Position numbers and translations under genes: made by a program. Source: a virus. From it: a stretch of 35,473 nucleotides of DNA. The notes beneath the pieces were generated by a model. The model had not been told where the DNA came from. It saw only the letters and a program-made list of their open reading frames with translations, and ran no database searches. The stretch is taken from positions 1 to 35,473 of the IMG/VR virus record IMGVR_UViG_3300044729_003256. One strand, written 5' to 3'. This document shows, piece after piece, positions 4,544 through 22,696 of the stretch (positions are counted from its first letter, which is position 1; every line of letters begins with the position of its first letter).

Positions 4544-5101
4544 TTAGATCATGGCCACATGATCACAGATGTGTAGTTGCTTGGCTTCTTGGGCATCTAA
4601 CCAAACATCTGTGGGCGGAAGAAGTTTTTGCTTGATGGTGTCTTGATCAAGACCAGTGCATTCCTGATACAGCTGAACCATGCGTCGTTGTGTGAGTTCA
4701 AATTCTTTGATCGTGGCAAACAGCTCATGTGCTTTGCCATCGCTGCCCCAACTGAACTGATGACTCAAGATGCTGGTGTTAGGTGTTAACACACGTCGAC
4801 CCGGCGCACCGGCCAAAAATATCATGAGCCCTGCTGAGGCTATCTGACCCAGGCCCACAGTTTTCACTGGGATTCGGCTGCTGCGCATGACATCAATAAG
4901 GGCAAAGGCAGCAGAAACATCACCACCTTCGCTGCACAACATCAGCAAAAGTTCTTTGCGACGTTTTCGAGTTACAAAATTTTCTTGCAGGATCCACTCG
5001 ATTGCAGGCTTTACTGTGTCTGTGCTGACCTCACCCATGAGCACAAACATGCCATTGTCTTGCAGAGTTGGAGTTGGGTTATCAGTGTCTGGGGTAGCCA
5101 T
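4544..5101 (-). CDS. clpP: ClpP-like serine protease subunit
   Basis: The product is 185 aa from the ATG at 5101, close to mature bacterial ClpP length. The catalytic triad is visible: Ser89 in GQIASAG, His114 in LSHQ and Asp165 in PTDVW, with spacing close to E. coli ClpP. The EGGDVSAAFAL stretch is the conserved substrate-channel segment. ClpP forms tetradecamers and degrades proteins fed by ClpX or ClpA; this phage also encodes ClpX and ClpS. An alternative ATG at 5119 lies inside a 9-bp hairpin, so the downstream ATG is preferred. Neither start has a strong ribosome binding site. Confidence 0.93.
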   Translation of the reverse strand: MATPDTDNPTPTLQDNGMFVLMGEVSTDTVKPAIEWILQENFVTRKRRKELLLMLCSEGGDVSAAFALIDVMRSSRIPVKTVGLGQIASAGLMIFLAGAPGRRVLTPNTSILSHQFSWGSDGKAHELFATIKEFELTQRRMVQLYQECTGLDQDTIKQKLLPPTDVWLDAQEAKQLHICDHVAMI

Positions 5102-5109
5102 AGTGGAAA

Positions 5110-5131
5110 ACAGGTGCATTGCTGCACCTGT
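5110..5131 (-). terminator. GCAA-loop hairpin with T run before clpP
   Basis: On the minus strand a 9-bp perfect stem (ACAGGTGCA/TGCACCTGT) is capped by a GCAA tetraloop and runs into TTTTCC. It lies 19 bases after the LPP20-like gene stop and encloses the upstream candidate ATG of clpP (5119). It may terminate the lipoprotein transcript, hide the clpP start, or both. Confidence 0.6.
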
Positions 5132-7877: not shown

Positions 7878-7960
7878 CGTAACTCTGTTACGAGGTGTGC
7901 CCGGCTGCTGGGCTTGGGAGTAGCGATTCGCTACCGCGAAACTGAAAAGTGAGCACTTTT
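7878..7960 (+). ncRNA. four-hairpin structured leader before the desaturase
   Basis: The 99-base gap between two genes holds consecutive perfect hairpins: CGTAAC-TCT-GTTACG (7878-7892), GCCCGG-CTG-CTGGGC with one G-T pair (7899-7913), GTAGCG-ATT-CGCTAC (7920-7934) and AAAAGT-GAGC-ACTTTT (7945-7960). Linkers of 6, 6 and 10 bases separate them. The last touches the ATG at 7961 and contains an alternative GTG start. I do not recognise a known riboswitch or tRNA. It is probably a structured 5' leader or small RNA. Confidence 0.55.
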
Positions 7961-8668
7961 ATGCTAGAAGTTTTATACACACTCATAGTAACTCACATTA
8001 CCATTGTGTCGGTCACGCTGTATTTGCATCGTGGTCAAGCTCACAGGTCAGTGGAGTTTCACCCCGTGGTCAGTCATTTCATGCGTTTTTGGTTGTGGCT
8101 TACCACAGGAATGGTTACAAAACAGTGGGTGGCCATACATCGCAAACATCACAGATTTTGCGAAAAGGCCGAAGATCCACACAGCCCACATCAGGTTGGA
8201 CTCTGGCGTGTGTTGTTTGGCGGCGCAATGTTATATCATGAAGCATCAAAAGATACTGAAATGGTTGGTGCTTATGGTGCTGGCACTCCTGATGATTGGA
8301 TCGAGCGCCATGTATACACGCCTCACAGCCGACTGGGCATTGGCATTCTCTTTGTGTTCAACTGTGCCATCTTTGGCTGGCTGGGCGCCTTGATCTGGCT
8401 GGTACAAATGCTTTGGATACCGTTCTGGGCAGCGGGTGTGATCAATGGCATTGGGCACTGGTGGGGCTATCGCAACGGTGAAACCAGGGATCAAAGTCGC
8501 AACATTTTGCCCTGGGGCATCATCGTGGGCGGCGAAGAGCTGCACAACAATCACCATCTAGCACCGGGCAGTGCCCGTCTCAGTATCCGGCCCTGGGAGT
8601 TTGACCTGGGCTGGTTCTATATCTGTCTGCTTAATACACTAGGATTGTCTCGCACTAGACCCACGTAA
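7961..8668 (+). CDS. membrane fatty acid (acyl-CoA delta9-type) desaturase
   Basis: The product is 235 aa with the three histidine boxes of membrane di-iron desaturases: HRGQAH (23-28), HRKHH (60-64) and HNNHH (195-199), plus GHWWGYRN near 165-172. Hydrophobic segments lie near residues 3-22, 40-55, 125-150 and 150-165. Such enzymes put a double bond into acyl chains and so change membrane fluidity. It is shorter than most bacterial relatives (~270-400 aa) but complete in motifs. ATG 7961 is chosen; a GTG at 7949 is in frame. A four-hairpin leader precedes it. It is a likely auxiliary metabolic gene acquired from a host. Confidence 0.93.
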   Translation: MLEVLYTLIVTHITIVSVTLYLHRGQAHRSVEFHPVVSHFMRFWLWLTTGMVTKQWVAIHRKHHRFCEKAEDPHSPHQVGLWRVLFGGAMLYHEASKDTEMVGAYGAGTPDDWIERHVYTPHSRLGIGILFVFNCAIFGWLGALIWLVQMLWIPFWAAGVINGIGHWWGYRNGETRDQSRNILPWGIIVGGEELHNNHHLAPGSARLSIRPWEFDLGWFYICLLNTLGLSRTRPT

Positions 8669-8712
8669 ATACGTAAGACCAGTTCCACCTATAAAAATTC
8701 TAAAGGAACAAA

Positions 8713-8796
8713 ATGTCGTACGTGATCAGTCATGAGCTGATTTTGCCCGTGGGGGGCGGTGTTAGATTCGGGGGTTCAATGGCATGGATCCCCTAA
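8713..8796 (+). CDS. 27-aa leader-like peptide overlapping the next gene
   Basis: ATG at 8713 with AAAGGA 5 bases upstream; the peptide starts MSYVISHELILPVGGGVRFG and ends in SMAWIP. Its end overlaps the start of the 8784 gene by 13 bases, and that gene has no ribosome binding site of its own, so this peptide may couple translation. GTTCC (~8681) can pair with GGAAC in the ribosome binding site. Function beyond coupling is unknown. Confidence 0.5.
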   Translation: MSYVISHELILPVGGGVRFGGSMAWIP

Positions 8797-9551
8797 CCCT
8801 CTTTGCCCTCGCAAATGGTGCGGTACAGGCTGTCAAAAAAGGCTGTGAACTCTACAAAGAAATAGCCAGTGCAGCCGGTGATGTCAAAGGTATTCTAGCA
8901 GACCTTGACCAACAGTTTGGCGATAAGTTTAGAGATCGTTCGCCCACTGTTGCGGAAAAAAATCAATACATTCAAGAAAAAAATCGCATCATTGAGCTGA
9001 GCAAGCAACAGCCCAATGACATCTACACCACCATTGGCGAGGAACTGGGTGTGTATTTTGAAAACTACGCCAAGTGCAGTGCCATATTTGAAGAAGAAGA
9101 AAAGCATGCTCTTGAAGTCTACACCGGAGAAACCAGTCTAGGCAAACGTGCTCTACAACGAGTGTTGATGCAAAGCAGACTCACTGCCATGGAAGCCGAA
9201 CTTCGTGAACTCATGGTTTACAATTGTCCTCCAGAACTGGGTGATTTGTATACTCGTGTGTATGCCATGATGGAGAAGATGAAGAAAGAACAATCTATTG
9301 CCTGGGCCAAGAAACGTGTCCAGGACAAGATTGCTGCGCAAAAAAGACGTCGTAGAATAGAACATATCAAATGCAATGCCTGGAAATATGGCATTGCCGC
9401 TGTGGTCAGTGTGTATTTGATTTGGTTGGTGTGGGCAGTGGTTCAAATAAGAATAGAAGTTGAACCTGAACTAGGCCGATGTTTGATACCCAAAGGAAGT
9501 GCAGTATACAATTGGTATAACAATTTGAAGTGGGTGGACTGCGAAAATTAA
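8784..9551 (+). CDS. coiled-coil protein with C-terminal membrane anchor (255 aa)
   Basis: The start MDPLTLFALANGAVQAVKKG belongs to a family I associate with T4-like aquatic phages. Residues 55-195 are helical and highly charged, likely coiled coil. A basic patch (AAQKRRRRIEH) precedes one transmembrane segment (~202-221, ending LIWLVWAVV). The C-terminal ~30 residues would be on the other side of the membrane and hold two cysteines. A membrane-bound structural or assembly factor is plausible. Starts with ATG inside the overlapping 27-aa peptide gene. Confidence 0.75.
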   Translation: MDPLTLFALANGAVQAVKKGCELYKEIASAAGDVKGILADLDQQFGDKFRDRSPTVAEKNQYIQEKNRIIELSKQQPNDIYTTIGEELGVYFENYAKCSAIFEEEEKHALEVYTGETSLGKRALQRVLMQSRLTAMEAELRELMVYNCPPELGDLYTRVYAMMEKMKKEQSIAWAKKRVQDKIAAQKRRRRIEHIKCNAWKYGIAAVVSVYLIWLVWAVVQIRIEVEPELGRCLIPKGSAVYNWYNNLKWVDCEN

Positions 9552-9562
9552 TAGGCTAAGTT

Positions 9563-9700
9563 ATGAAGCACAAAGTCAACATAAATTTAATTATACGCAT
9601 GTATCGAGATCATCATTACTCAGTGGCCGACATCTGCCTGCGCTTGAGATACAGTCCCGATATTGTGGAAGCTGTGATCAAGAGATATGGTGACCGATGA
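9563..9700 (+). CDS. tiny helix-turn-helix protein A (45 aa)
   Basis: The product starts MKHKVNINLIIRMYRDHHYS and continues VADICLRLRYSPDIVEAVIK. The segment SVADICLRLRYSPDIVEAVI reads as a helix-turn-helix of the homeodomain-like/sigma-region-4 type, with almost nothing else. It overlaps the next gene by ATGA. No strong ribosome binding site is visible. Its partner at 9697 has the same layout, suggesting tandem duplication. Likely a DNA-binding regulator or half of a heterodimer (inference). Confidence 0.65.
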   Translation: MKHKVNINLIIRMYRDHHYSVADICLRLRYSPDIVEAVIKRYGDR

Positions 9701-9825
9701 CTGAATACCGACATGCCAAGGCTGTTTTACAATTACACAATGCCGGCATGAGCATGCTCACCATTGCCAAGCTTTTGAATCTCTCCATTGACCAAGTGGC
9801 CAATGTCATAGCTCATTACTCCTAA
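9697..9825 (+). CDS. tiny helix-turn-helix protein B (42 aa)
   Basis: The product starts MTEYRHAKAVLQLHNAGMSM and continues LTIAKLLNLSIDQVANVIAH. It has the same arrangement as protein A: an N-terminal helix, then a helix-turn-helix (TIAKLLNLSIDQVANVI). The start overlaps the stop of A (ATGA) and its own stop overlaps the AAGGAG of the next gene. It is a candidate transcription factor or DNA-binding partner of A. Confidence 0.65.
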   Translation: MTEYRHAKAVLQLHNAGMSMLTIAKLLNLSIDQVANVIAHYS

Positions 9826-9835
9826 GGAGCTGGCC

Positions 9836-10276
9836 ATGAAATTGTTTGTTTCCGCTGTGTTGCTGGCCTTCGCCACTCTGTGTGATGCTGCCCCTGTTGA
9901 ATTTCCTGCACCTGGCAAAATGTCAGTGAACGTTTCGCAGTTTGTTCGCGTGGGCGCAGAAAACAACTATGTGATGTACATGACACCTGATGCGGTTGAT
10001 GCACACAAGCCTGTTATCGAACTTGTGAGCGTGGTAGAGTTTGATACGGAATGGCATTACTATCTACTGACTCAACCAGTCAAGCAAATAGTTGCGCACG
10101 GAGCATTGTTGTGTGAACAACAACAATATTTCATACTCACACTGTGGTATGTGGATCATGAAAAAAACATTGTGCTGATTGAAAGATATCAACCAGGGGA
10201 GTTTGCCAGCGATTTGAGTCAGGCAAACACTGCCAGAAACGTCATGATGCTCATGGCCTGCCGATCCAGTTCCTGA
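9836..10276 (+). CDS. secreted protein of unknown function (146 aa)
   Basis: A Sec signal peptide (MKLFVSAVLLAFATLCDAA) precedes a beta-rich mature domain (EFDTEWHYYLLTQPVKQIVA, YFILTLWYVDHEKNIVLIE). AAGGAG overlaps the stop of the upstream helix-turn-helix gene. Mature cysteines near residues 93 and 142 could form a disulfide. It ends in a 26-base overlap with a convergent small membrane-protein gene. No family is recognised. Confidence 0.75.
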   Translation: MKLFVSAVLLAFATLCDAAPVEFPAPGKMSVNVSQFVRVGAENNYVMYMTPDAVDAHKPVIELVSVVEFDTEWHYYLLTQPVKQIVAHGALLCEQQQYFILTLWYVDHEKNIVLIERYQPGEFASDLSQANTARNVMMLMACRSSS

Positions 10277-10397
10277 TCCAATCCACAGCGTATTCGCATG
10301 CGTGAGCAAAGCCCAGAGCAGTGATCATTACGATTGTGATCACCGTGCCTGTCATGAGCCAGTAACCAATCATGGACAAAATTGTTGACAGTATCAT
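10251..10397 (-). CDS. small membrane protein (48 aa)
   Basis: The product starts MILSTILSMIGYWLMTGTVI, with a hydrophobic stretch covering about residues 2-30, then an amphipathic tail ending VDWIRNWIGRP. Its ATG overlaps the stop of the upstream membrane-protein gene (ATGA). Its 3' end overlaps the convergent secreted-protein gene by 26 bases. It is the last gene of the uvsE operon. Function unknown. Confidence 0.65.
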   Translation of the reverse strand: MILSTILSMIGYWLMTGTVITIVMITALGFAHACEYAVDWIRNWIGRP

Positions 10398-10681
10398 GTC
10401 AGCATCCTTATCAATCCAACAGTATCAATGGTGGTGAGCAAAATGTAGTTGGCCAGCATGCCAAATGATTTGCGGCTCCAGGCAGCCCAGGCATACATTG
10501 CACAGCCAGAAATCCAGGCAGGATATAGAGCCAGCAGTGGCGGATTGGGCACTGTGATGGCCATGGTAAAGGCGCAGCCAATAGAAACTGCCCAGGCCAG
10601 TATTTCAACCACAAATCGCACACGATTTGACGCCCAATCATCCCGTATCCAATCAAACGTATGTCGTAGCAAGTTGTTCAC
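10394..10681 (-). CDS. conserved phage membrane protein (95 aa)
   Basis: A GTG start at 10681 overlaps the stop of the amidinotransferase-family gene (GTGA), with GGGAG 5 bases upstream. The product has about three membrane segments (FVVEILAWAVSIGCAFTMAI; LALYPAWISGCAMYAWAAW; MLANYILLTTIDTVGLI). I associate this type with T4-like aquatic phages. The function is not known; position in the operon with amidinotransferase and uvsE is its only context. Confidence 0.75.
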   Translation of the reverse strand: MNNLLRHTFDWIRDDWASNRVRFVVEILAWAVSIGCAFTMAITVPNPPLLALYPAWISGCAMYAWAAWSRKSFGMLANYILLTTIDTVGLIRMLT

Positions 10682-11796
10682 AGCGGCTCCCTATGTAATT
10701 CAGCTGTCATACAATGTATGCCACCATCCCAAAAATACAGCGTTGAAAAATCAGGCAACACATGCGGGGTGATGTCATTGTCAACCAAGATGTCTAACAA
10801 CTGAGGATCAGCTGCGGTTGTGATCACATTGGCATTGTCTATGCACAACATGTTGACATCATAACTGCTTTCCCAACTGTATCCAAACCACTGTTGAAAA
10901 CGTGATTCAATTTCTTGAGTCAAGGTCTGGTCATGTTCCATGCCCGGTATCCACCATCGTCCCTGAGTTTGATCCAGGAACTGTTGCATTTCTTGACTGC
11001 GAGCCAAGTCACGCATGAGGTTGTTGCCCGGTAATCGATAGATTTTCCAACCAGGCAACATGTGTTCATAATCAATCCAACAGTTGGGCTCGTCCACAGC
11101 AATCAATAAGCCAGGTTTGGGCACACAGAATATACCATCAATGTGTCCGGCACTTGACACAACATGATGTTGACGTCCGGGAAAGAGTTGTTGATACTTA
11201 TCATTAGAGTTGGCATGCTTGGTGTCCGTGCCCCAAATCCATTGCTGACCGAGTCGCATGATCTGACCACCGTCGGCCCAGTCCAGGTTGATGACCTGAT
11301 TGCCCTGGCTGCGCACATGATCAACTATGTGTTGATAAGATGCAGAAAACTTTTTTATATATTTGAGTTCGCTTTCAAGGTGACCGCGTCCCATGAGATC
11401 TTGTATCTGATGAGCCGGGGCCAAGGCTAAAAACTGCTCAAGAGTGTCATAAGGCAACCAATCCGGAGCCTTGACATTGTTGTAATAGGTGTGCCAATAG
11501 CTGTCGCGATAACAAAAAACATCGCCAGCCATGAACATGTAATCTCGAGGCTGTTGTGGCGGAAGTGGAAAATTTTCTGGATCTGCTTGGTCTGGAATGC
11601 GTGGACGAATTGTGTACACACCAAACTGATCCAACAAGCTCAAGAGACGATCCAAGCCAGCACAAGTAACCGAAGCCATGTGCTGCATGGTATCTCTCAC
11701 TCGGTGATTGGGAATCCAATCATAGAAACTGGTGGGATAACTGCTGCCCACCACACAAACTTTCAGTCTATCCCATTCATGTTCAACTGAATACAT
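10678..11796 (-). CDS. amidinotransferase-family enzyme 1 (372 aa)
   Basis: A member of the guanidino-group modifying superfamily (amidinotransferases and arginine deiminases). It starts with EWDRLKVCVVGSS, followed by PRD at 83-85, an acidic motif ADGGQI (Asp175), GHIDG (His218) and a C-terminal GGIHCMT with Cys362 as nucleophile. These match the Cys/His/Asp machinery that moves or hydrolyses a guanidino group. The substrate is unknown. The ATG overlaps the end of uvsE by 14 bases; no ribosome binding site is seen. A second, more canonical member lies at 13256. Confidence 0.85.
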   Translation of the reverse strand: MYSVEHEWDRLKVCVVGSSYPTSFYDWIPNHRVRDTMQHMASVTCAGLDRLLSLLDQFGVYTIRPRIPDQADPENFPLPPQQPRDYMFMAGDVFCYRDSYWHTYYNNVKAPDWLPYDTLEQFLALAPAHQIQDLMGRGHLESELKYIKKFSASYQHIVDHVRSQGNQVINLDWADGGQIMRLGQQWIWGTDTKHANSNDKYQQLFPGRQHHVVSSAGHIDGIFCVPKPGLLIAVDEPNCWIDYEHMLPGWKIYRLPGNNLMRDLARSQEMQQFLDQTQGRWWIPGMEHDQTLTQEIESRFQQWFGYSWESSYDVNMLCIDNANVITTAADPQLLDILVDNDITPHVLPDFSTLYFWDGGIHCMTAELHREPL

Positions 11797-12802
11797 CGTT
11801 CAAGAAACCATCACGAGCCAAGTTCTTGCCTTTGGCTTCACATTCAATGTCAAAGTCTGTCATGAATCCAGCGGCCCATTGATTCACAGCATGGTTCCAG
11901 TAAAAGTCTGAATGGGCTCTGAGCTTTTGCTTTTTAAAATTTCCAGCAAGTAATCCAGCAAGATCTGGTCTAGTATGGGGATCATGTCCAACAAGAAGAT
12001 CTTCGCGGCTAACACTGTAGTGAATAGCAGGGCGCACACCACGCCAAGACTCAGAAACCCGCTTAACACGATCGTCGTTGGGGTCAATATATTCACCTGT
12101 CTGCACCCAATGATGATGCACATCCAGAACAAGAGCCACACTACCAGCCACAGCAAGAGTACAGTCAAGGCCATTTGTTATTTCGTCGTTTTCTATGGTT
12201 ATGAGATTGCGAGCTTCCGGAGACAGCCTACCAAGAGTACGCAGAAACTTTTCTGCGCCGCCTCGTCCACTCAAATGTACATTTATCATGAATCCATGAT
12301 CGTGCCAAGTTTTACCATAGCCCATCCAGCGAGCCATGTCCGCATGATACTCAAATTCCTCAATGCTGCGTTCCACAATGTTGTCATTCTCTGAAGCCAA
12401 CACGCAAAACTGCCCGGGGTGAAAGCCAATGCGCACACCCAAACGTCGAGCGGCTTCGCCCACAGGTGCAAAGATGCGTTCACAGTGATCTTGTACATCC
12501 CTGCGTTGCCACCAGGCTTTCCAGTCCTTTTCGGTATAGCCCTGAAGCATTTCTGAACCCAGACGCACCATGCGCAGATGCTCAGGCAATGCGCCCACAC
12601 GTTCTACCATTTTCAGCGCAGCCGCTGCGTTGTGGTTCATGATGTCCCACTGACGCTGTTCGGCTTCCTCAGGGTGCTCACGCAGCCAGCGCATGGTGGT
12701 ACTACGTCCGTTTACCGAACGATCTGTGGCGTTGACTTTCATCCCACCAGTTTCTGAGGGATCATTTAGCCATTTGCAGCAAAATCCAATTCTAGCAATC
12801 AT
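11783..12802 (-). CDS. uvsE: UV-damage endonuclease (UvsE/UVDE)
   Basis: The product is 339 aa starting MIARIGFCCKWLND. The RIGFCCK start, GFHPGQFCVLAS, NVHLSGRGG and ITIENDE segments, with scattered His/Glu/Asp, match the UVDE TIM-barrel metal enzymes that nick DNA 5' of UV photoproducts. Length is typical. It heads an operon with an amidinotransferase-family gene and two membrane proteins. The promoter's TATACT ends only 5 bases before the ATG, so the transcript would be leaderless or nearly so. It supports repair of sunlight damage. Confidence 0.93.
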   Translation of the reverse strand: MIARIGFCCKWLNDPSETGGMKVNATDRSVNGRSTTMRWLREHPEEAEQRQWDIMNHNAAAALKMVERVGALPEHLRMVRLGSEMLQGYTEKDWKAWWQRRDVQDHCERIFAPVGEAARRLGVRIGFHPGQFCVLASENDNIVERSIEEFEYHADMARWMGYGKTWHDHGFMINVHLSGRGGAEKFLRTLGRLSPEARNLITIENDEITNGLDCTLAVAGSVALVLDVHHHWVQTGEYIDPNDDRVKRVSESWRGVRPAIHYSVSREDLLVGHDPHTRPDLAGLLAGNFKKQKLRAHSDFYWNHAVNQWAAGFMTDFDIECEAKGKNLARDGFLNDVFS

Positions 12803-12807
12803 ACCTT

Positions 12808-12836
12808 AGTATACGCACATTTAGAAAAAACGTCAA
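12808..12836 (-). promoter_or_regulatory. sigma70-type promoter, TTGACG-17-TATACT
   Basis: TTGACG (12831-12836), 17 bases, TATACT (12808-12813) on the minus strand. Only AAGGT separates the -10 from the uvsE ATG, so transcription should start at or next to the start codon. Confidence 0.75.
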
Positions 12837-12843
12837 CAATTTA

Positions 12844-12851
12844 GATAAATA
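12844..12851 (+). promoter_or_regulatory. possible late-promoter element GATAAATA
   Basis: GATAAATAC lies 7 bases before the ATG at 12859. The downstream gene has no Shine-Dalgarno. The motif resembles T4-type late promoters but sits very close to the start codon. Confidence 0.4.
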
Positions 12852-12858
12852 CTAGACC

Positions 12859-13272
12859 ATGGCAAAATACTCAATTTGTTTCCCAGACGCATTTGTATGT
12901 GTACCTGTTCAAATGGCACCCCAGGAATTTGACCCTTGGGAGTACACCAAAGATTGTTTTTATTTGTGGAACAATGGTTCGGTACATTGGGTAGAATTCT
13001 ATTTCAAAGTTCCTGATTATGACAGCATACAAGATCAACCCGCTGCCCGATTGATCCGATTTGTTGCGTCTGAGATGTCCTGGACACCAGAGTCTGGTCT
13101 GTCAATGATTGTAGACACAGATCACATGTATGTTGATCCCGGGCATGACGATTGGTTCATTCGAGATATTCCGTTTGATCAGCAAGATCTTGTTGTGGCC
13201 ACGGATCTCACACGTGAGCTGTTTTTTTCTTCCTGGCGCATGTTGGGGTGGCAGATCAGTCGTATCGACTGA
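12859..13272 (+). CDS. hypothetical protein (137 aa)
   Basis: The product starts MAKYSICFPDAFVCVPVQMA. It is acidic, aromatic-rich and soluble (WNNGSVHWVEFYFKVPDYDS; DTDHMYVDPGHDDWFIRDIP). It lies alone on the plus strand between two minus-strand operons, with a GATAAATA element directly upstream and no ribosome binding site. Its end overlaps the convergent amidinotransferase gene by 17 bases. I do not recognise a family. Confidence 0.7.
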   Translation: MAKYSICFPDAFVCVPVQMAPQEFDPWEYTKDCFYLWNNGSVHWVEFYFKVPDYDSIQDQPAARLIRFVASEMSWTPESGLSMIVDTDHMYVDPGHDDWFIRDIPFDQQDLVVATDLTRELFFSSWRMLGWQISRID

Positions 13273-14176
13273 GATCCAGCGTTACGCAATGAAATCCACC
13301 ACCAAGAGTTCGGCTATGCCGCAGTTCCAACTCAATAACGTCAAAGTTTAGATCACGCAGTGTTTCAATCAAGGGCTGTTGGATGGTATCGACTATCACG
13401 GTATGTGAATTCACTACCAATAGATTCATACCAATCCATTTGCTGGCATAGGGATATTGGTAGAAATCTCGGGCCACTACGTCCTGGACCCAGACTTTTT
13501 GCCAAGTGTCAAACACACGTGGGCAATTTGATTCATTGACCCGGCTGGCGTTGAGCAACACCAAGCCTTCACGCAAAGGCATCACAGTGCTGTCAATATG
13601 CACCCCGGCATAAAAGTTACAGAGTTCAATGTTGACCTCGGGCAACATTGTAGAAAGATATTCATAAGACTGCAAGTTCCCGCTGGGACTCTGCAAATAC
13701 AGCATGTGTTCTGGGCCCAATTTCAATACATTGGCAGCGTCCAAAACATACCCCAGTGACCGATCCATGGTTATGAATTGTTCAGCTTCGTCCCAAAAGG
13801 TCTCATAAGCTTCGCGTTCCATGTCGCGACTGGGATACATCATGGCAGTGTCAATCACCCAACTGCCATAGATAAGAAATCTATCTCGCGGGCAATAATT
13901 GTAGAAACCATTTCTGCCTTGAAAGTCAATCACACTAGGACGCAACACTTCGACCCCCAGTGATGTCAAGGTAGATGCCAAAATGTCTAGATCTTGGTTG
14001 GCTTCATCAATGATCCACTGTGGTACCGGTCCTGACGGCACCGGGGTTTCACGCCACGTGGTCTTTTGGCTTTCCAGCGCAAACACAGGATCGGTGGTGG
14101 GCCAGTTGGCATTGGTGGCATCGCCCACAATCACTTTGCGTAGCTGGCTCCACTCATCATAGGAATTGATCATCAT
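13256..14176 (-). CDS. glycine/inosamine-type amidinotransferase 2 (306 aa)
   Basis: A canonical amidinotransferase. CPRD lies at 95-98, DAANVLKLG gives Asp146, GVHIDST gives His193, and GGGFHCVTLDL gives the nucleophile Cys297. These match the triad of glycine and inosamine-phosphate amidinotransferases, which move a guanidino group from arginine to an amine acceptor. The product is slightly shorter than cellular relatives (~350-420 aa). The ATG overlaps the upstream oxygenase-like gene by ATGA. The neighbourhood (sugar dehydrogenase, glycosyltransferase) suggests an amino-sugar acceptor, which is inference. Confidence 0.9.
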   Translation of the reverse strand: MMINSYDEWSQLRKVIVGDATNANWPTTDPVFALESQKTTWRETPVPSGPVPQWIIDEANQDLDILASTLTSLGVEVLRPSVIDFQGRNGFYNYCPRDRFLIYGSWVIDTAMMYPSRDMEREAYETFWDEAEQFITMDRSLGYVLDAANVLKLGPEHMLYLQSPSGNLQSYEYLSTMLPEVNIELCNFYAGVHIDSTVMPLREGLVLLNASRVNESNCPRVFDTWQKVWVQDVVARDFYQYPYASKWIGMNLLVVNSHTVIVDTIQQPLIETLRDLNFDVIELELRHSRTLGGGFHCVTLDLSRYD

Positions 14177-14691
14177 AGATGGCCCGTGATTTGCAGTGTG
14201 TATCGAGGAGTGGTGCCAAGATTGGCAGCCATGTGCTCTAGATCATAGACCCATTCACACACATGCCCGGCCTGCCAGCCTGTCACAGCCTGGCCACCAC
14301 CTTCAAAATAATGGCCGCTTTGCCAGGGTTCTAAAAAAATCACAGCACGTCTAATAGAGTGCTTTTTATGTTCCAGACCAAAAATCTGCACGTATCTCAG
14401 ATAAGTGTCTCGATGAGACGGCAACACAGTGCCGGGCATCATACGGTAATAGGCAGTGCCAATATCTTGCCAGCCAAGATTTTGATAAAATTCTACGAAA
14501 CGATGATTCCACGTAGGCTGTTGACGTCGCATGTCACACAGGTCGCCTGTGAACCTGGAAGAGAAGCCCTGTGCTTTCCAACGCTCAACTGTGTCAGGAT
14601 CATTGAAAGGATCTTGCGAATAATCAAGACGTTGATATTCATCGTCCCAAAAAGGAACAATGTTATACTGAATCAGACCTGGTGTTTCCAT
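14173..14691 (-). CDS. 2-oxoglutarate/Fe(II) oxygenase-like protein (172 aa)
   Basis: The start METPGLIQYNIVPFWDDEYQ is the first ATG; a GTG at 14724 is in frame. LPSHRDTY gives an HxD pair, and a later His in DLEHMAANLG with Arg in TPRYTLQI gives the distal His and a 2OG-binding Arg. The segment between (RRAVIFLEPWQSGHYF) is cupin-like. This suggests a small hydroxylase of the aspartyl/prolyl-hydroxylase type; the substrate is unknown. It overlaps the sugar dehydrogenase gene by 29 bases and the amidinotransferase gene by ATGA, so the three are co-translated. Confidence 0.7.
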   Translation of the reverse strand: METPGLIQYNIVPFWDDEYQRLDYSQDPFNDPDTVERWKAQGFSSRFTGDLCDMRRQQPTWNHRFVEFYQNLGWQDIGTAYYRMMPGTVLPSHRDTYLRYVQIFGLEHKKHSIRRAVIFLEPWQSGHYFEGGGQAVTGWQAGHVCEWVYDLEHMAANLGTTPRYTLQITGHL

Positions 14692-15916
14692 ATGAAATAA
14701 CTTTGATTTGTCCCGGTAACTCACGTGGGAGAGTTCGCCAGGGATCTACAACTATGCTACCAGCAGGAATATCGCAATAGAATCTGTCTTGTTGCACGTT
14801 GCCAGTATAACCATATGTAACTGCCCGATTATGAGCCATCAAAATCACATGTGGTTCATCCAGTTTCATCACCACGTTGGCTGTGTCATCAGCCAAGGGA
14901 TCTAGGTATTTGATACTCAAACCCATTTTGGCAACATAGTGCCCCACCAAGGTGCTGTAGCTACCTATGCAGTAAGGTACATCCGGCTTGTAGGTCTTGC
15001 CGTGTATGGCAATGGGAATACCACAGTTATCGTCGCTGACGCCAATCAAAAAATGTGCTAGATTTTTGGCCTGACGTTCACGTGCATGCATGATGGTGTC
15101 AAACAGATCATAACCTAGATCATATTCTTCCGCCAACCAACGCAGAGCAATGTTGTCTCGTGGATGACAAGCTCCGGCATCGCCCATGCCTGCGGTCATG
15201 TACTTTGGTCCCATGATACGCATGGTGCTGCGAGCCAAGGCCGACGTAACCACATCAACGTTGATGTTGCCAATCTTCATGGCAAAATCTTGAATCATGT
15301 TTGCCAGTCCAACTTTGGCAGAAATAAAAGTATTGTAAAAAATCTTGATTGCTTCACATTCTTCCCAGGTACCTATTTCATATCTGGGATCGTTTTCCAT
15401 CACTGTGTTATAGAGTTCACAGAGCTCACGTGCAACTCCTGTTTCACTACCGTCCTCAGTGCCAATTATGACCATTTCAGGATTGACCATGTCCCATTTC
15501 ACTGACCCCATGGCAATGAGATAAGGATTGTAAATGAAATTGTGTTGTGGTTCCAAGAGTTCTGCAAAATGTCGTCGTGTGGTACCAGGTAACACAGTGC
15601 TGATCAGTACAACATTTTTGCTGTCGCTGGCATGCAAATTAATTTTATGCAGAGCATTCAATACCGCATCATGGCCAAAATCTCGGGGTTCTAGATGACT
15701 GCTGGGCACTGAGCCATCGTAACCCTCTGCATGCGGTGTTGGCACTGCTATAAAAATCCAATCGCTGCTGTCAACAACTTCAGCAATGTCGCAAACTTTG
15801 ACAGAATCGCTGGTGCGCGGGTAAATATCGTAACCCTTTACAGTATGCTGGGTGGCGAACACTTCAGCACAATCCAGTCCCAATTTGCCAAGGCCAATAA
15901 AACCAATTCGTTGCAT
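14663..15916 (-). CDS. UDP-glucose/GDP-mannose dehydrogenase family enzyme (417 aa)
   Basis: The N-terminus has the NAD-binding GxGxxG (IGFIGLGKLG). IAVPTP at 56-61, STVLPGTT at 106-113, Lys201 in FISAKVGLANM and catalytic Cys250 in GACHPRDN match the nucleotide-sugar 6-dehydrogenase family, which oxidises a UDP- or GDP-sugar to the uronate. Cys250 is kept, but FPKD of typical enzymes reads HPRD. The start at 15916 is chosen because the glycine-rich loop must be N-terminal and AGAGGA lies upstream. It heads the operon with the oxygenase-like and amidinotransferase genes. Confidence 0.88.
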   Translation of the reverse strand: MQRIGFIGLGKLGLDCAEVFATQHTVKGYDIYPRTSDSVKVCDIAEVVDSSDWIFIAVPTPHAEGYDGSVPSSHLEPRDFGHDAVLNALHKINLHASDSKNVVLISTVLPGTTRRHFAELLEPQHNFIYNPYLIAMGSVKWDMVNPEMVIIGTEDGSETGVARELCELYNTVMENDPRYEIGTWEECEAIKIFYNTFISAKVGLANMIQDFAMKIGNINVDVVTSALARSTMRIMGPKYMTAGMGDAGACHPRDNIALRWLAEEYDLGYDLFDTIMHARERQAKNLAHFLIGVSDDNCGIPIAIHGKTYKPDVPYCIGSYSTLVGHYVAKMGLSIKYLDPLADDTANVVMKLDEPHVILMAHNRAVTYGYTGNVQQDRFYCDIPAGSIVVDPWRTLPRELPGQIKVISYGNTRSDSV

Positions 15917-15917
15917 A

Positions 15918-17204
15918 ATGTCTGTTCCTCTTGATAAATTATACGATTTTTTAGATTCAATAGTCAAGCAAGATCTAATCATTTATCGCTGGATGCCACA
16001 TGGTTCTAGAAAACTGCAAGATCTACAGCCTTTGAAAGATTACCCAGACGATTTTGTTTTGCATACCACCCCCATGGCAATCTTTCATGATCAAGAGCCG
16101 CTGAACTTTGAACTGTATGATCTAGAAAACTTGATACAGACCTATTTGCATTACCAACCCACATCACAGTTGCGATTGAATTTTGATACCAACGACCTAG
16201 AACTCATGACGCTGTTGCGGGATATGCATGTTCGCGGTGTTGGCACCACAGCCTTTGCCAATCTCTATGATCAGACCATTTTGGTACACAGTGAGAAACG
16301 CAGTGAACAGGTGACCCTGTGGCAACAACACAATTACTTACCAGTGTATTATTGGAGCCATGCTGTGATTGCTCGCGACTGGTTTAGATACGCCCAGTAC
16401 GATCCTGAGTTGAGGCAACGCAGTCCCACTCAGGATTTTTTGATATACAATCGCTCTTGGTCTGGCACCAGAGAATACCGTTTGAAATTCACAGAGATGT
16501 TGTTGGAACGAAATCTCAATCAACGCTGCATGATCAGTTTCAGCCGCTGGTGTGACAACATTGATTACACCGATCATGAGTTTGTTAATCCCAACTTTGC
16601 GATCCACAATCAAAATCTGCACCAACATTATGATCAGTGTTTTGCCACCAGCAACAGCAGTGCAGATTACTGGGCCCCGGACTATGTGTCAACAAGATTT
16701 GAAATTGTGCTGGAAACTTTGTTCGATGATGATAGACTGCATCTCACAGAAAAAATCTTACGACCCATTGCCTGCGGTCATCCCTTTGTGTTAATGAGTA
16801 CTCCAGGCAGTTTGGAATATCTGCGCAGTTATGGATTCAAAACGTTTGGGGACTACTGGGACGAAAGCTATGACCAAATCACTGACAGCAAGCAGCGCAT
16901 GTTGGCAGTGATTGATCTCATGCAACACTTGGCATCACTGCCCAACAAAGATCAATTGTGCCAAGAAATTCAGGCAGTGTGCGAACACAACCGTGCTAGA
17001 TTTTTCAGTGCGGAGTTCTTGAATTTGGTTGTGGATGAATATAACACCAACATGACTCATGCACTAGAGCAAATGCAACAGCACCGTTCCGGAGTATTTT
17101 TCCGGCGCATGTTGCGCTATTTGCACAGCAGGTCACTGCCAATTTGGGATCACTTTATGCCTCGTGAACTTGTGGTAAAACTTTGGCGTCATCTAAGGTC
17201 TTGA
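15918..17204 (+). CDS. putative glycosyltransferase (428 aa)
   Basis: The start MSVPLDKLYDFLDSIVKQDL lies one base from the divergent sugar dehydrogenase ATG. The region LHLTEKILRPIACGHPFVLM near residue 275-295, followed by STPGSLEYLRSYGFKTFGDY and WDESYD, resembles the C-terminal donor-binding part of fucosyltransferase/exostosin-like enzymes and matches a family I associate with marine T4-like phages. No N-terminal signal or membrane segment. With the divergent sugar operon it may decorate virion, envelope or DNA. No ribosome binding site is seen. Confidence 0.65.
   Translation: MSVPLDKLYDFLDSIVKQDLIIYRWMPHGSRKLQDLQPLKDYPDDFVLHTTPMAIFHDQEPLNFELYDLENLIQTYLHYQPTSQLRLNFDTNDLELMTLLRDMHVRGVGTTAFANLYDQTILVHSEKRSEQVTLWQQHNYLPVYYWSHAVIARDWFRYAQYDPELRQRSPTQDFLIYNRSWSGTREYRLKFTEMLLERNLNQRCMISFSRWCDNIDYTDHEFVNPNFAIHNQNLHQHYDQCFATSNSSADYWAPDYVSTRFEIVLETLFDDDRLHLTEKILRPIACGHPFVLMSTPGSLEYLRSYGFKTFGDYWDESYDQITDSKQRMLAVIDLMQHLASLPNKDQLCQEIQAVCEHNRARFFSAEFLNLVVDEYNTNMTHALEQMQQHRSGVFFRRMLRYLHSRSLPIWDHFMPRELVVKLWRHLRS
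15938..15967 (-). promoter_or_regulatory. sigma70-like promoter, TTGACT-18-TATAAT
   Basis: TTGACT (15962-15967), 18 bases and TATAAT (15938-15943) on the minus strand, ahead of the sugar dehydrogenase gene. It lies inside the divergent glycosyltransferase coding sequence, whose ATG is at 15918. Confidence 0.6.
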
Positions 17205-17601: not shown

Positions 17602-18390
17602 ATGCAATTCGCATTTGACCTAATTTCAGACTTACACGTGGATCAATGGCAGGGGCTTGATTGGTCTCAACAGGCCACCAGCCCAGTGTGCATTGTGGCC
17701 GGCAACGTTGCCACTGGACACAAAGCCACACTTGATGTGCTGCGTCATCTCACACAGAGTTATCAAGTTGTATTTTACATTGATGGCAGTGTTGAACACG
17801 ATCATTATCGCAGTCACTTGTTCCATAGCTATCAGCAGCTGACTCAAAGACTGAGCTCCATACCTCGATTGGTTTATCTCCAAGACAACGTGGTTGTGCT
17901 TCACGGCGTGGCCATATTGGCCACCAATGGCTGGTGGAATTTTGATTTTGACCCCAAGCAAGACCCTGATGATGTCAAAACATGGTACAATGTCAAGCAC
18001 GGGACCAGTGATGTTGAAATTGAACAGATAGGCAACATGTGCGAGTTTGATACCAGTTACATGATCAAAGGTGTGCGCAGACTACAAACACACACTGACG
18101 TCAAACGCATTGTGATGGTCACGCATTCTGTGCCTGATCCCACATTGATTGACCACGATATCAGCATAGCAGGACAACCTGAATTCAGTTGCATGGGCAA
18201 CAGCACCATGCAGCAGGCACTGATCGCCGACACCGAAAACAAAATCAGCACCTGGTGCTTTGGTAGATATCATGGATCAGTTGATCAGATTCGCAATGGT
18301 ATACGTTTTGTAAACAATCCAAGAGGGTCACCCAGTGACCCTTATCCTCAGACCACTTACTATCCACGCAGAATTATTGTGGAAATTTAA
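17602..18390 (+). CDS. degenerate calcineurin-like metallophosphoesterase (262 aa)
   Basis: The N-terminus FDLISDLHVD carries the first metal motif (DxH, D10/H12). Later blocks are altered: VAGNVA has Asn where GD is expected, IDGSVEHD replaces GNHE/D, MVTHSVPD keeps its His, and CFGRYHGSVD stands where GHxH is normal. So it has the fold, but the metal centre is changed; it may bind rather than cleave, or use other ligands. A TTAAATAT element lies 6 bases before the ATG with no ribosome binding site. It overlaps the convergent clpS gene by 4 bases. Confidence 0.75.
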   Translation: MQFAFDLISDLHVDQWQGLDWSQQATSPVCIVAGNVATGHKATLDVLRHLTQSYQVVFYIDGSVEHDHYRSHLFHSYQQLTQRLSSIPRLVYLQDNVVVLHGVAILATNGWWNFDFDPKQDPDDVKTWYNVKHGTSDVEIEQIGNMCEFDTSYMIKGVRRLQTHTDVKRIVMVTHSVPDPTLIDHDISIAGQPEFSCMGNSTMQQALIADTENKISTWCFGRYHGSVDQIRNGIRFVNNPRGSPSDPYPQTTYYPRRIIVEI

Positions 18391-18695
18391 TTAGATTCTG
18401 GTTCTAGTTTGATTTGCAGCGGATATTGTTGTTGCCGTGCCAGCATAGTAACTTCGATGCCTTTTTGTTCTGCAATTTCATAGGGCAACACTGCTACCAC
18501 AGCACTACCAGCTTCATGGATGTCCATGGTGATTTTGTCTGCTGTTTCCATGGTGTAATCAAAATATTCAATCAAACTCTCAATCACGAATTCATAAGTG
18601 GTTTGATTGTCGTTTAGGTAAACCACTTTATACAGCGGTGGTTCTCTTACATCTACAACGGTACGTACTCGTGTGCTTACTTCAGAATTTGCCAT
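18387..18695 (-). CDS. clpS: ClpS N-degron adaptor
   Basis: The product is 102 aa, usual ClpS length. PPLYKVVYLNDNQTTYEFVI, then helices and a DIHEAGSAVVAVLPYEIAEQ block align with ClpS throughout. The degron pocket keeps Asn-Asp (YLND) and the pocket His (DIH). The gatekeeper Met of E. coli ClpS (TPMEFV) is Tyr here (TTYEFV), and the second Asp is Asn. ClpS passes N-degron proteins to ClpA; no ClpA is seen in this window, but ClpX and ClpP are. The second ATG (MANSEV) is chosen because GAGGA lies 7 bases upstream. A palindrome precedes it. Confidence 0.93.
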   Translation of the reverse strand: MANSEVSTRVRTVVDVREPPLYKVVYLNDNQTTYEFVIESLIEYFDYTMETADKITMDIHEAGSAVVAVLPYEIAEQKGIEVTMLARQQQYPLQIKLEPESN

Positions 18696-18710
18696 GATCA
18701 TTCCTCACAT

Positions 18711-18749: not shown

Positions 18750-19199
18750 TTAAGAAACGTATGTGATTGCAATGCTCTTGGGACGAGCTGTTTCAGGCAC
18801 TATACGCTCCAGACTCACTGTCAAAATTCCGTCTTGACAGGTAGCACTCTTGACTTCAATGTAGTCTGCCAAGGGAAAAGTGCGTGTGAATTTCCGTGCG
18901 CTGATACCGCGATGCAAGAATTGTGTGTCTTCTTGGTCTTCGCGTTTTTTGTCCCCGGTCACTGTTAGGGTGCCGTCATGGAAAGTCACATCAATTTCGC
19001 CCTGACTGAAGCCAGCCACTGCCAAACGGATTTCATAGGTTTCGCTTTCTGCCCCGCCTGTTTTCACAATGTCATAGGGCGGATAATTGCCCACTTGAGC
19101 ACTGGTGTCAATTTGGTTCATGATGCGATCAAACAGTCGGTCAATGCCGATGCTGTTGCGATAGAAGGGGGTTAGATCAATAGAAGTTACTCGTGTCAT
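18750..19199 (-). CDS. Hsp20/IbpA-type small heat-shock protein
   Basis: The product is 149 aa. The alpha-crystallin domain spans about 40-140: YEIRLAVAGFSQGEIDVTFH, TLTVTGDKK and ATCQDGILTVSLER are its signature. The C-terminal RPKSIAI gives the IxI motif used for oligomerisation. Such proteins hold unfolding proteins for DnaK, which lies directly upstream. A strong AAAGGAG lies before the ATG. The ~60-nt leader is homologous to that of dnaK. Hsp20 is known from T4-like cyanophages, so the gene type is not new; the pairing is. Confidence 0.95.
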   Translation of the reverse strand: MTRVTSIDLTPFYRNSIGIDRLFDRIMNQIDTSAQVGNYPPYDIVKTGGAESETYEIRLAVAGFSQGEIDVTFHDGTLTVTGDKKREDQEDTQFLHRGISARKFTRTFPLADYIEVKSATCQDGILTVSLERIVPETARPKSIAITYVS

Positions 19200-19303: not shown

Positions 19304-21157
19304 TCAATCAGATTTGACTTCAGCGTCAACCACTGTGTCGTCTGACGATGTTGGTTTGGCATTTTTGACCTGGTTCAAAGGCTCCAACTTGCCCATGAAA
19401 TCGCCAAACGCTTTGCGCATGGCATCCAGATCTTCCGAAGCTACCAAAGATTCATATTCATCAATGGCAGTTTCGATATCTTGGCGTTGCTCTTCGGTCA
19501 ATGCATTACCGTGTTCTTTGAGATCAGATCGCGCCTGGTGTGCTGCGGCTTCAATTTGATTGCGAGCTTCGATCAATTCACGCTGGTGTCGATCAGACTC
19601 TGCGTTTTCTTCAGCTTCGCGTATCATGCGATTGATCTCTTCGTCGGTGAGACCGCTGTTGGCCTTGATGGTGATAGTATTTTCTTTGCCGGTGCGTTTG
19701 TCTTTGGCACTGACTTTGAGAATACCGTTGGCATCCACATCCAATGTGACTTCAATTTGCGGTACACCGCGTGGCGCAGGATCAATACCTTCTAGGTTGA
19801 ACTCGCCCAATAGCTTGTTGTACTTGGCCAATTCACGTTCGCCCTGATACACCTTGATTGTCACAGCAGGTTGATTGTCCTCGGCTGTGCTAAACACCTG
19901 ACTGTGTTTGGTAGGAATGGTGGTATTCTTTGTGATCAGCTTGGTCATGACACCGCCCACGGTTTCAATGCCTAGGCTCAAAGGAGTCACATCCAACAGC
20001 AACACATCTTTGCGATCGCCCGCCAACACCGCGCCCTGGATGGCCGCACCCACTGCCACAGCTTCGTCTGGGTTTACGTCTTTGCGAGGCGATTTGCCAA
20101 ACAATTTTTCCACGGCTTCCTGCACTCGGGGCATGCGGGTTTGTCCGCCTACCAAGATAACTTCGTCAATGTCTGAGGCCTTGACACCAGCATCTTTCAG
20201 AGCTGTGCGGCAGGGTTCCAGACTGGCTTGAATAAGATCGTCAACCAAACTTTCAAGTTTGGCTCTGGTGATCTTGATGTTGAGATGCTTGGGACCTGTG
20301 GCATCAGCTGTGATATAGGGCAGGTTTACATCTGTTTGTGTGCTGTTGGAAAGCTCAATCTTGGTTCTTTCAGCGGCTTCCTTGAGGCGTTGCAGAGCCA
20401 TGACATCCCGGGCAAGATCCACGCCAGAATCCTTTTTGAATTCAGAGATGAGATAGTCAATGATGCGCTGGTCAAAGTCTTCACCGCCCAGTGAGGTATT
20501 GCCATTCGTACTCAATACTTCAATCTGTTTGTCGCCATCAACATCGGCAATTTCAATGATTGACACATCAAATGTGCCGCCGCCTAGGTCATACACAGCT
20601 ACCTTGCGATCGCCCTTGGTTTCCTTGTCCACACCGTAGGCAAGAGCCGCTGCTGTGGGCTCATTGATAATACGCAGAACTTCTAGACCTGCAATGGCAC
20701 CGGCATCTTTGGTGGCCTGTCGCTGACTGTCATTGAAATATGCTGGAACTGTGATAACTGCGTGTGTTACTTCGTGCCCAAGGTAGTCTTCGGCAGTCTT
20801 TTTCATTTTGCGCAGCACTTCGGCTGAAATCTGTGGTGGTGCCATGTCGCGATCCAGCGCACGAATCCAAGCATCACCGTTTGTGGCCTTGACTACTTCA
20901 TAGGGCATGTGGTGCGATTTGCTTTCTTCAAAGCGACGACCAATAAAACGCTTGGCAGCGTAAATGGTGTTTTTGGGATTGGTCACAGCCTGACGTTTGG
21001 CTGGTGCGCCCACGAGAATTTCGTCAGAGGTGTAGGCCACTGTGCTGGGTGTTGTTCTCGCACCTTCTGAATTTTCAATTACTCGGGGAAGTCCGTTTTC
21101 GATTACTGCGACGCAGCTATTGGTGGTACCTAGGTCGATACCTATTACTTTGCTCAT
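19304..21157 (-). CDS. dnaK: DnaK (Hsp70) chaperone
   Basis: Full-length DnaK, 617 aa. The ATPase domain starts [14 protein letters not shown], has [39 protein letters not shown] and [10 protein letters not shown]; the linker is [16 protein letters not shown]; the substrate domain runs to ~510, then the helical lid and a [12 protein letters not shown] tail like the bacterial EEV-type end. It resembles betaproteobacterial DnaK from memory. It refolds proteins with DnaJ and GrpE, which are not in this window, so it probably uses host co-chaperones. TGAGGAG precedes the ATG. Its leader is shared with hsp20. Confidence 0.97.
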
Positions 21158-21251: not shown

Positions 21252-21506
21252 CTATTTTGGCTCTACTAATCTAAAATTTTTTAGATAGTGTGTCAAAACA
21301 TCATTATGGCTCTCAGGCTGCCAGGTCAAGGCAAAAAAATGATACATTTCGTCGTCATCAAACGTGATACGCAGAGTGTACTTCACAACTTTTCTACGAT
21401 ACACCACTCTAAAACGTTCACTCCAGGCAGCTATGCGATTGTCTAGTTCTTTGAGAATCAAGCCTGCGGCCTGAGACGATGAGGGCAAAGCAAACTCTAT
21501 GTACAC
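21252..21506 (-). CDS. conserved small T4-like phage protein (84 aa)
   Basis: A GTG start at 21506 overlaps the clpX stop (TAGTG). The product begins VYIEFALPSSSQAAGLILKE (V read as Met) and contains VKYTLRITFDDDEMYHFFAL, a pattern I associate with small T4-like phage proteins. Alpha/beta, soluble. It is the last gene of the membrane-protein/clpX unit. Function unknown. Confidence 0.75.
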   Translation of the reverse strand: MYIEFALPSSSQAAGLILKELDNRIAAWSERFRVVYRRKVVKYTLRITFDDDEMYHFFALTWQPESHNDVLTHYLKNFRLVEPK

Positions 21507-22696
21507 TACTGATTGACAGCCAACAGTTGATGCGGGTCTTGTACTTGGTTCACATCGATACTGACATGTTTGATGCCTTGTCTGCGATATTCTGCTAGAT
21601 AAAACATGTGTGGTAACAACACCCTTTCCAGTTCGCTGTGAAGCCCGCGAGCTCCGGTGCGATTTTCCAAGGTACGTTGCGCTATGAGATTCAGCGCCTC
21701 AGCGGAGAATTCTAGTTCTACATTGTCACGTTCAAACAGCCAATGATACTGACTGATGTAGCTGTGTTTTACATCCTGCAAGATTTTCACAAGGTCTTCG
21801 CGAGTGAGCTCACTGAGGCTTACCCAACTGGGAAAGCGGCCCACAAATTCTGGAATCATACCAAATTTGATTAGGTCTTCAGGTGTGACATCTTCAAGAT
21901 ACTGTTCAGGGTCTTCTGTGACTCGGGCATTGAATCCAATGCTGGTTCCTTTGATGCGATTTTTTACTATGTTATCCAGTCCCACAAAAGCACCGCCGGC
22001 AATGAACAAAATATTGGTAGTGTCAATTTCCACGGTTTCACCTGCAGGATGTTTGCGACCGCCTGTGGGGGTGATTCTGCAACGTGTGCCTTCAACCAGT
22101 TTAAGCAGGGCCTGTTGCACGCCTTCGCCTGAAACATCGCGAGTGATGCTGGCGCTTTCGCTGCGGCGACTGATTTTGTCTATTTCATCAATAAACACAA
22201 TACCACGTTGACAGCGTTGTACGTCACCATCAGCTGCTGCAAACAGTCTGGATATCAGGCTTTCAACATCGTCGCCCACATAACCTGCTTCGGTAAGACT
22301 GGTGGCGTCGGCTATCACAAAAGGCACATCTAGATATCGAGCCACACTGCGAGCCAGCAGAGTTTTTCCTGATCCAGTTGGTCCCAACATCAGGATGTTG
22401 GTTTTCTCAATTTCTGCTGTGTTGTCAGTGTTGTTGATGCGTTTGTAATGATTCACAATGGCCACACTGAGAACCTGTTTGGCTCTCTGCTGACCTATCA
22501 CGTACAAGTCAAGATTTTGCTTGATGGCCATGGGATCCAATGTCATGTCCTTGGCCGGCTCAACTTCTTTGTCAACCAGCAGAGTTTGACACAGCTCCAC
22601 ACATTCGTTGCAAATAGCAACTCCTTCGCCAACAATCAGCTTGGCTACTTCGTCTTTGCTTTTACCGCAAAAATTGCACGATGTTGTTTCGGTCAT
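21506..22696 (-). CDS. clpX: ClpX ATP-dependent unfoldase
   Basis: The product is 396 aa, near the usual ~424. The N-terminal zinc domain has C7, C10, C29 and C32. AAA+ motifs are intact: Walker A GPTGSGKT (105-112), Walker B VFIDEID (167-173), pore loop GYVG (138-141), RKH loop (214-216) and sensor-2 GAR (348-350). The IGF loop used to dock on ClpP is present (SIGF, 252-255). It should unfold tagged proteins and feed ClpP, which the phage also encodes at 4544. The ATG overlaps the upstream membrane-protein gene (ATGA); no Shine-Dalgarno. Confidence 0.96.
   Translation of the reverse strand: MTETTSCNFCGKSKDEVAKLIVGEGVAICNECVELCQTLLVDKEVEPAKDMTLDPMAIKQNLDLYVIGQQRAKQVLSVAIVNHYKRINNTDNTAEIEKTNILMLGPTGSGKTLLARSVARYLDVPFVIADATSLTEAGYVGDDVESLISRLFAAADGDVQRCQRGIVFIDEIDKISRRSESASITRDVSGEGVQQALLKLVEGTRCRITPTGGRKHPAGETVEIDTTNILFIAGGAFVGLDNIVKNRIKGTSIGFNARVTEDPEQYLEDVTPEDLIKFGMIPEFVGRFPSWVSLSELTREDLVKILQDVKHSYISQYHWLFERDNVELEFSAEALNLIAQRTLENRTGARGLHSELERVLLPHMFYLAEYRRQGIKHVSIDVNQVQDPHQLLAVNQ

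Follow-up and report, generated by a model that had tools for sequence, protein, structure and literature searches.

A conserved phage gene cassette that combines a StrB-type amidinotransferase with an oxygenase-like protein and sugar-related genes, and its possible role in glycan guanidinylation

The IMG/VR-type virus record IMGVR_UViG_3300044729_003256, a genome fragment whose full 35,473 bases are hereafter designated the window, carries a compact group of four genes that includes an amidinotransferase (AT2). Three of them overlap successively on the minus strand in an operon-like manner, encoding, in the order of reading, a protein of the nucleotide-sugar dehydrogenase family (UGD; 14663..15982, probable start at 15916, 417 aa), a 2-oxoglutarate (2OG)-Fe(II) oxygenase-like protein (14173..14724, probable start at 14691, 172 aa), and AT2 itself, a StrB-type L-arginine-dependent amidinotransferase (13256..14176, 305–306 aa), with the 2OG stop and the AT2 start sharing the tetranucleotide ATGA. 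A single base separates the UGD start (15916, minus strand) from that of a divergent gene on the plus strand (15852..17204, 450-aa open reading frame (ORF), probable start at 15918, 428 aa) for a glycosyltransferase-like (GT-like) protein. Both the overlaps and the coordinates agree with an earlier reading of the letters alone (hereafter the sequence-only reading), which had described AT2 as co-translated with the 2OG and UGD proteins and the glycosyltransferase as diverging one base away. In comparison with a related locus (L003), the ratios of nonsynonymous to synonymous substitution (dN/dS) were 0.05 for 2OG, 0.05 for UGD, and 0.12 for GT, and AT2 showed a dN of 0.19 with saturated dS; these are therefore selected genes rather than chance ORFs.

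AT2 is clearly homologous to StrB1 (PDB 1bwd), the L-arginine:inosamine-phosphate amidinotransferase of the streptomycin pathway (phmmer E = 2.8e-58, both halves aligned), followed by HsvA, SxtG, and human AGAT as the next matches, which bears out its earlier assignment to the amidinotransferase family. The residues D97, D145, H192, D194, and C296 are the counterparts of the acidic residues, His, and Cys in StrB1 and AGAT and are invariant or nearly so across 20 diverse relatives, the triad Asp being replaced by Glu in 11 of 67 distinct ones. In a quick tree, the AT2 proteins of freshwater phages formed a single clade (support 100) inside the StrB-like half. A PF02274 search of the window's own record gave no match, which reflects the reach of that model and not the absence of the family. 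Judged from these sequence features, AT2 is very probably an active amidinotransferase. As for the acceptor, the 300-flap reads Y-A-G-V in AT2 and Y-A-S-T in StrB1, whereas AGAT has Asn300 and Met302, which shape its acceptor site (PMC4887976; PMC3684758). The lack of this AGAT-specific residue pair in AT2 makes an acceptor larger than glycine likely; glycine is less likely yet possible, because the glycine enzyme CyrA is likewise without equivalents of Asn300 and Met302 (PMC3684758). An annotation of AT2 as a glycine amidinotransferase of creatine metabolism would probably mislead. AT2 shares with StrB1 the strong homology, the Cys-His-Asp site, and the small flap residues, but it differs in being a phage gene product, in its length (305 versus 348 aa), and in its linkage to the 2OG, UGD, and GT genes; no aminocyclitol pathway genes were found beside it in the window annotation or in the conserved cassette.

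The labels that the sequence-only reading had given to the accompanying proteins held in part. Of 78 members of the 2OG family, 77 carry the HxD...H...R motif of 2OG oxygenases, with H104, D106, H164, and R174 invariant in the alignment (A5), but the window protein matched PF05118 below the Pfam cut-off (E = 0.0088; 16.3 bits against 22.6), and just 3 of 26 family members reached the 0.01 level with that model; a separate 2OG gene adjoining an amidinotransferase gene in another locus (L108) passes it (24.6). UGD belongs to the UDP-glucose/GDP-mannose dehydrogenase family (phrog_9148, 1e-84; UGDH in PDB, 1e-24), and its alignment to human UGDH, like the family alignment (A6), showed the active-site Cys to be kept together with equivalents of Lys220 and Asn224. 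The phage protein is unlike the human enzyme in falling below the NCBIfam cut-off and in replacing Glu161 and Glu165 by Tyr and Met (YNPYLIAMG) in all 52 of the phage members. Since the human E161Q mutant, whose structure is known, traps a thiohemiacetal (PMC3184952) and both glutamates are lost here, plain UDP-glucuronate is doubtful as the product; either the product is altered or another residue may substitute for the lost glutamates. Related UGDs of phages Bellamy and HTVC008M lie near a NadE-like gene, a carbamoyltransferase, and a methyltransferase, with glycosyltransferases also in Bellamy, surroundings that have the appearance of a sugar island. An insertion carrying a 286-aa ORF, homing-endonuclease-like by eye and possibly marking an intron or intein, interrupts UGD in four loci (L039, L040, L042, and L074).

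The GT-like family gave no match to Pfam, including its glycosyltransferase models, or to PDB sequences, and its label therefore derives from the predicted fold. The AlphaFold2 (AF2) model of the protein (mean predicted local distance difference test score, pLDDT, 86.8) is confident but bears only a weak resemblance to GT-B enzymes, which made up most of the top Foldseek matches, the best PDB match being at E = 4.3e-3 ( template-modelling (TM) scores 0.34–0.36).

The linkage of these genes was analyzed in two search directions. A search with AT2 retrieved 80 viral loci at 37–77% identity, counted as 68 distinct loci, in which 2OG lay directly upstream of AT2 in 61 (with the 4-nucleotide (nt) overlap in 28), a GT-like gene within four genes in 58, and UGD in 53. 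In the reverse direction, the best 80 of 552 confirmed stretches found with a 2OG profile were used; AT2 was directly downstream in 69 of the 76 having room on that side and within about 0.9 kb in the remaining 7, and on the upstream side the divergent GT was present in 69 of the 72 with sufficient room and the preceding UGD in 61. A single strong 2OG homolog adjoins AT2 in ten large relatives, and the flanks differ widely among loci. The AT–2OG pair also occurs in either gene order outside this group (S-SCSM2R (L001), L077, L098, and L103; AT first in L077 and L098), with amidinotransferases about 35–41% identical in the marine phages in which it recurs. Hence AT2–2OG–UGD–GT is a conserved unit, and the notion that the genes are never conserved together, which the sequence-only reading had named as what would speak against it, was refuted by both searches. 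Collectively, AT2, 2OG, and GT probably act in one pathway. A host origin of the AT–2OG pair was considered and rejected: the bacterial-bin contigs L092, L098, L103, and L108 look like phage contigs, and other StrB-like bacterial loci lack this 2OG. More generally, phage-like AT, 2OG, and GT genes stand on contigs filed as bacterial genomes or metagenome-assembled genomes (MAGs) (these four and L107), which are probably viral.

A sugar or glycan context for the amidinotransferase, as the sequence-only reading had supposed, was met independently in several other phages. Synechococcus phage S-SCSM2R (PQ898602), a marine cyanophage known from its genome annotation (inosamine amidinotransferase and 2OG), carries an AT2 homolog (35%) surrounded by glycosyltransferases, a radical SAM gene, and a gene for an aminotransferase of the DegT family; its 2OG (E = 5.9e-16) shows the same overlap with the amidinotransferase gene as in the window, and a second amidinotransferase with 2OG comes after KdsA/KdsB. 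It differs from the window in that no adjacent UGD of the window family is annotated and its glycosyltransferases are from other families. In Campylobacter phage CP220, an amidinotransferase annotated as a possible glycine amidinotransferase is followed by one radical SAM gene and two genes with nucleotide-sugar transferase domains; it is likewise clustered with sugar-transfer genes, but shares only 23% identity and has radical SAM neighbours in place of 2OG and UGD. On L107, a contig of a Chloroflexi MAG that is perhaps viral, radical SAM, 2OG, amidinotransferase, window-family GT, DegT, and carbamoyltransferase genes stand together.

Moreover, eight large relatives (G002, G003, G005–G009, and G017) contain a second locus (L189–L192 and L194–L197) with an RmlB-like 4,6-dehydratase, a PseC/WecE-like DegT transaminase, one or two window-family GTs, and AT3, an amidinotransferase of a class distinct from AT2 with Ser at the triad Asp position, whose gene overlaps that of the neighbouring GT; seven of these relatives also carry a NodU-type carbamoyltransferase there. 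The gene content of this locus would suit the making of a guanidino-deoxysugar. Its c8 family, suspected by eye to be a 2-deoxy-scyllo-inosose (DHQS-like) cyclase, had no Pfam match, and that identification was rejected. A further ORF (c6; L189–L197), highly variable in length (521–2047 aa), lies on the opposite strand between the DegT/dehydratase and GT genes; no Pfam match was found in the member scanned.

As the AT2–2OG linkage recurs in both search directions and in either order, and in a glycan context, we favour glycan guanidinylation. The cassette may build and attach a guanidino-bearing glycan, most likely on the virion or the host envelope, a reading to which we give about an even chance. 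The protein families, the active-site residues, the operon, and the conserved linkage are established here; the order of steps, the acceptor, and the target are inferred as follows. The amidino group of arginine would be taken up by AT2 as a Cys296-amidino intermediate, leaving ornithine, and passed to a primary amine other than glycine, probably an amino-sugar or another amine of a glycan pathway. The acceptor or the product would be hydroxylated by the 2OG enzyme, and a nucleotide sugar would be oxidised at C6 by the UGD-family enzyme, perhaps without the hydrolysis that normally yields a plain uronic acid. Transfer of the finished unit would fall to the GT-like protein, the likeliest surface targets being a glycan of a virion protein and the host envelope.

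Several points weigh against this reading. The window cassette holds no aminotransferase or other obvious amino-sugar source, and no target protein or glycan was identified. The glycosyltransferase assignment is a predicted fold with weak matches, UGD has lost both glutamates and, being present in only 53 of the 68 loci, is not essential, and common descent accounts for part of the gene order that related phages share. Furthermore, the second locus uses the other amidinotransferase class, and a second locus of the window's own phage is beyond assessment in a genome fragment.

The alternative of free small-molecule metabolism, in which AT2 would amidinate an amino acid or polyamine (products of the guanidinoacetate, homoarginine, or guanidino-polyamine type), 2OG would hydroxylate it, and the sugar genes would be separate, is unlikely, though it has precedents. 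Known family members use glycine, lysine, and polyamines (PMC4887976; HsvA, 5wpi), and GATM is listed among the auxiliary metabolic genes of marine viruses (PMC10653327); L077 and L098 even pair AT with 2OG in the absence of the window's UGD and GT. This alternative would leave unexplained the window-family GT that stands divergently upstream of nearly all 2OG-anchored loci and also directly adjoins AT3, and it sits poorly with a flap devoid of the AGAT residues. It is improbable that the genes share nothing but their position, as neighbours passed down together within a single phage group and having no joint pathway: UvdE, ClpS, Hsp20, and phosphoesterase genes do keep a constant order in many loci although nothing evident ties them to the cassette, but AT2–2OG survives replacement of its flanks, recurs in marine phages with distant amidinotransferases, is also found with its two genes in reverse order, and retains the start/stop overlap in 28 loci.

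The target could also be another molecule. Modification of a host membrane lipid with a headgroup of guanidino or uronic type would fit the metallophosphoesterase, GT4, and PstS genes (PlcP/Agt-like and PstS) at distances of up to about 8 kb in several relatives (L052, L060, L066, and others), an arrangement like phosphate-starvation lipid remodelling, and the desaturase that lies near such genes in relatives and is encoded at 7949–8668 in the window. Apart from the desaturase, such genes are absent from the window and most loci, and the LpxH/PlcP and Agt assignments, unlike that of PstS, are weak and below the NCBIfam cut-offs, so that this reading is quite improbable. In a very improbable variant, AT2 and 2OG would act on side chains, of lysine or other residues, in a structural protein prior to its glycosylation. 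An example is c10 (350–430 aa, L007–L072, fibre-like at the C-terminus by eye), the gene for which stands no more than five genes downstream of AT2 in 28 of the 68 loci but is absent near AT2 in the window; PHROGs and PDB left the c10 family unnamed, its identification as a known fibre being rejected for want of a consistent match, and to our knowledge no member of the amidinotransferase family acts on proteins. Attachment to DNA, which the sequence-only reading had put beside the virion and envelope, fared worst and is hardly to be expected. A distant UGD homolog (22.7%) does occur in Bacillus phage SP-15, the DNA of which bears glucuronate-type groups, and would suit hypermodification with a guanidino or uronic sugar. 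Of 25 relatives, however, 24 lack the hydroxymethylpyrimidine synthases (PF00303, dNMP hydroxymethylase), Tet_JBP passed its cut-off in none of the 13 tested and is absent from all 12 large viral ones, and QueC was marginal in two; because several of the searched records are fragments, a DNA target is disfavoured but possible.

Returning to glycan guanidinylation, a wider proposal can be put forward only tentatively: large freshwater phages may run guanidino-sugar pathways, comprising the AT2–2OG–UGD–GT cassette and, in relatives, also a near-complete route (4,6-dehydratase, aminotransferase, amidinotransferase, GT, and carbamoyltransferase) to a 4-guanidino-4,6-dideoxyhexose, which would make cationic glycans of a kind not known from phages, and an amine might take the place of water in capturing the UGD thioester. 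Phage glycan and surface modifications are usually described with neutral or acetylated sugars. If the proposal is true, the strongly basic guanidino group would offer new chemical means of virion shielding, altered adsorption, or host-surface remodelling, and amidinotransferases and sugar dehydrogenases of new specificity could be drawn from these phages. Glycan-modification islands of phages are known; for the strongly conserved combination with a known enzyme family, no published account of the cassette was met in the literature covered, outside which lie most subscription journals and all preprints. For viral GAMT, a creatine role has been discussed (PMC11360552).

Another overlapping series on the minus strand consists of a UvdE-like UV endonuclease, a positional neighbour (11783..12802; PF03851, 1.9e-28), AT1 (10678..11796, 372 aa), and a 95-aa hydrophobic, probably membrane, protein (10394..10681), with overlaps of 14 nt between UvdE and AT1 and 4 nt between AT1 and the 95-aa protein. 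As a single sequence, AT1 found no match in PDB. The profile of its relatives (A2) matched AGAT at 1.1e-25 and also HsvA and SxtG, and its AF2 model (pLDDT 77) retrieved SxtG, AGAT, StrB1, and HsvA in Foldseek at about 1e-13 to 1e-11, with weaker matches to arginine deiminase and DDAH (about 2e-7). By profile and fold, the only means by which it was recognised, AT1 is thus a divergent member of the amidinotransferase family, in line with its earlier assignment. The Asp/His/Cys machinery attributed to both proteins is present in AT2 and in the window's AT1 (D85, D175, H218, D220, and C362), but it does not extend to AT1's own clade: His218, Asp220, and Cys362 are invariant in A2, whereas the Asp175 position is occupied by D, N, P, or S, the triad Asp being often lost. 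Catalytic activity of AT1 is plausible from the retained residues. AT1 and AT3 share the pentein fold of AGAT, SxtG, HsvA, and CyrA, and profile matches link AT1 to the first three; they differ from these enzymes in the frequent loss of the triad Asp and in forming, in a quick tree, a virus-only clade within the sampled set.

The sequence-only reading had grouped AT1 with UvdE and membrane proteins, which stands as a matter of position but not as a functional pair. AT1 lies between UvdE and the membrane-like protein in few loci (the window, L003, L010, L011, and L035), and within five genes downstream of AT2, UvdE is found in 53 of the 68 loci, the 95-aa membrane-like family in 26, and a second amidinotransferase in 6. 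AT1 therefore appears to be an optional insertion and not an evident partner in UV repair; presumably, it would serve as an additional amidinotransferase with a different acceptor. A stretch of about 3.9 kb (8500–12400, from the desaturase end to UvdE) is 99–100% identical to contig 3300032295_002835 (L083), with flanks mostly at 70–90%, which points to a recent exchange carrying AT1.

With the first 24.9 kb of the window as query, no close DNA match was found in the annotated phage collection. The other genes encode DnaK and Hsp20 (both named by eye from the sequence), ClpX, a ClpP-like protease, ClpS, an ATP-dependent DNA ligase, and both ribonucleotide reductase subunits, a predicted content typical of a large lytic phage. 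The proteolysis and chaperone set is unusually full for a phage, comprising ClpP-like (4544–5119), ClpS (18387–18701), Hsp20-like (18750–19199), DnaK-like (19304–21157), and full ClpX (21506–22696) proteins. Finally, among the viral contigs compared, one encodes a protein with CHASE2 and adenylate/guanylate cyclase domains (L009:708–2726), which belongs to a 20-member cluster in these loci.

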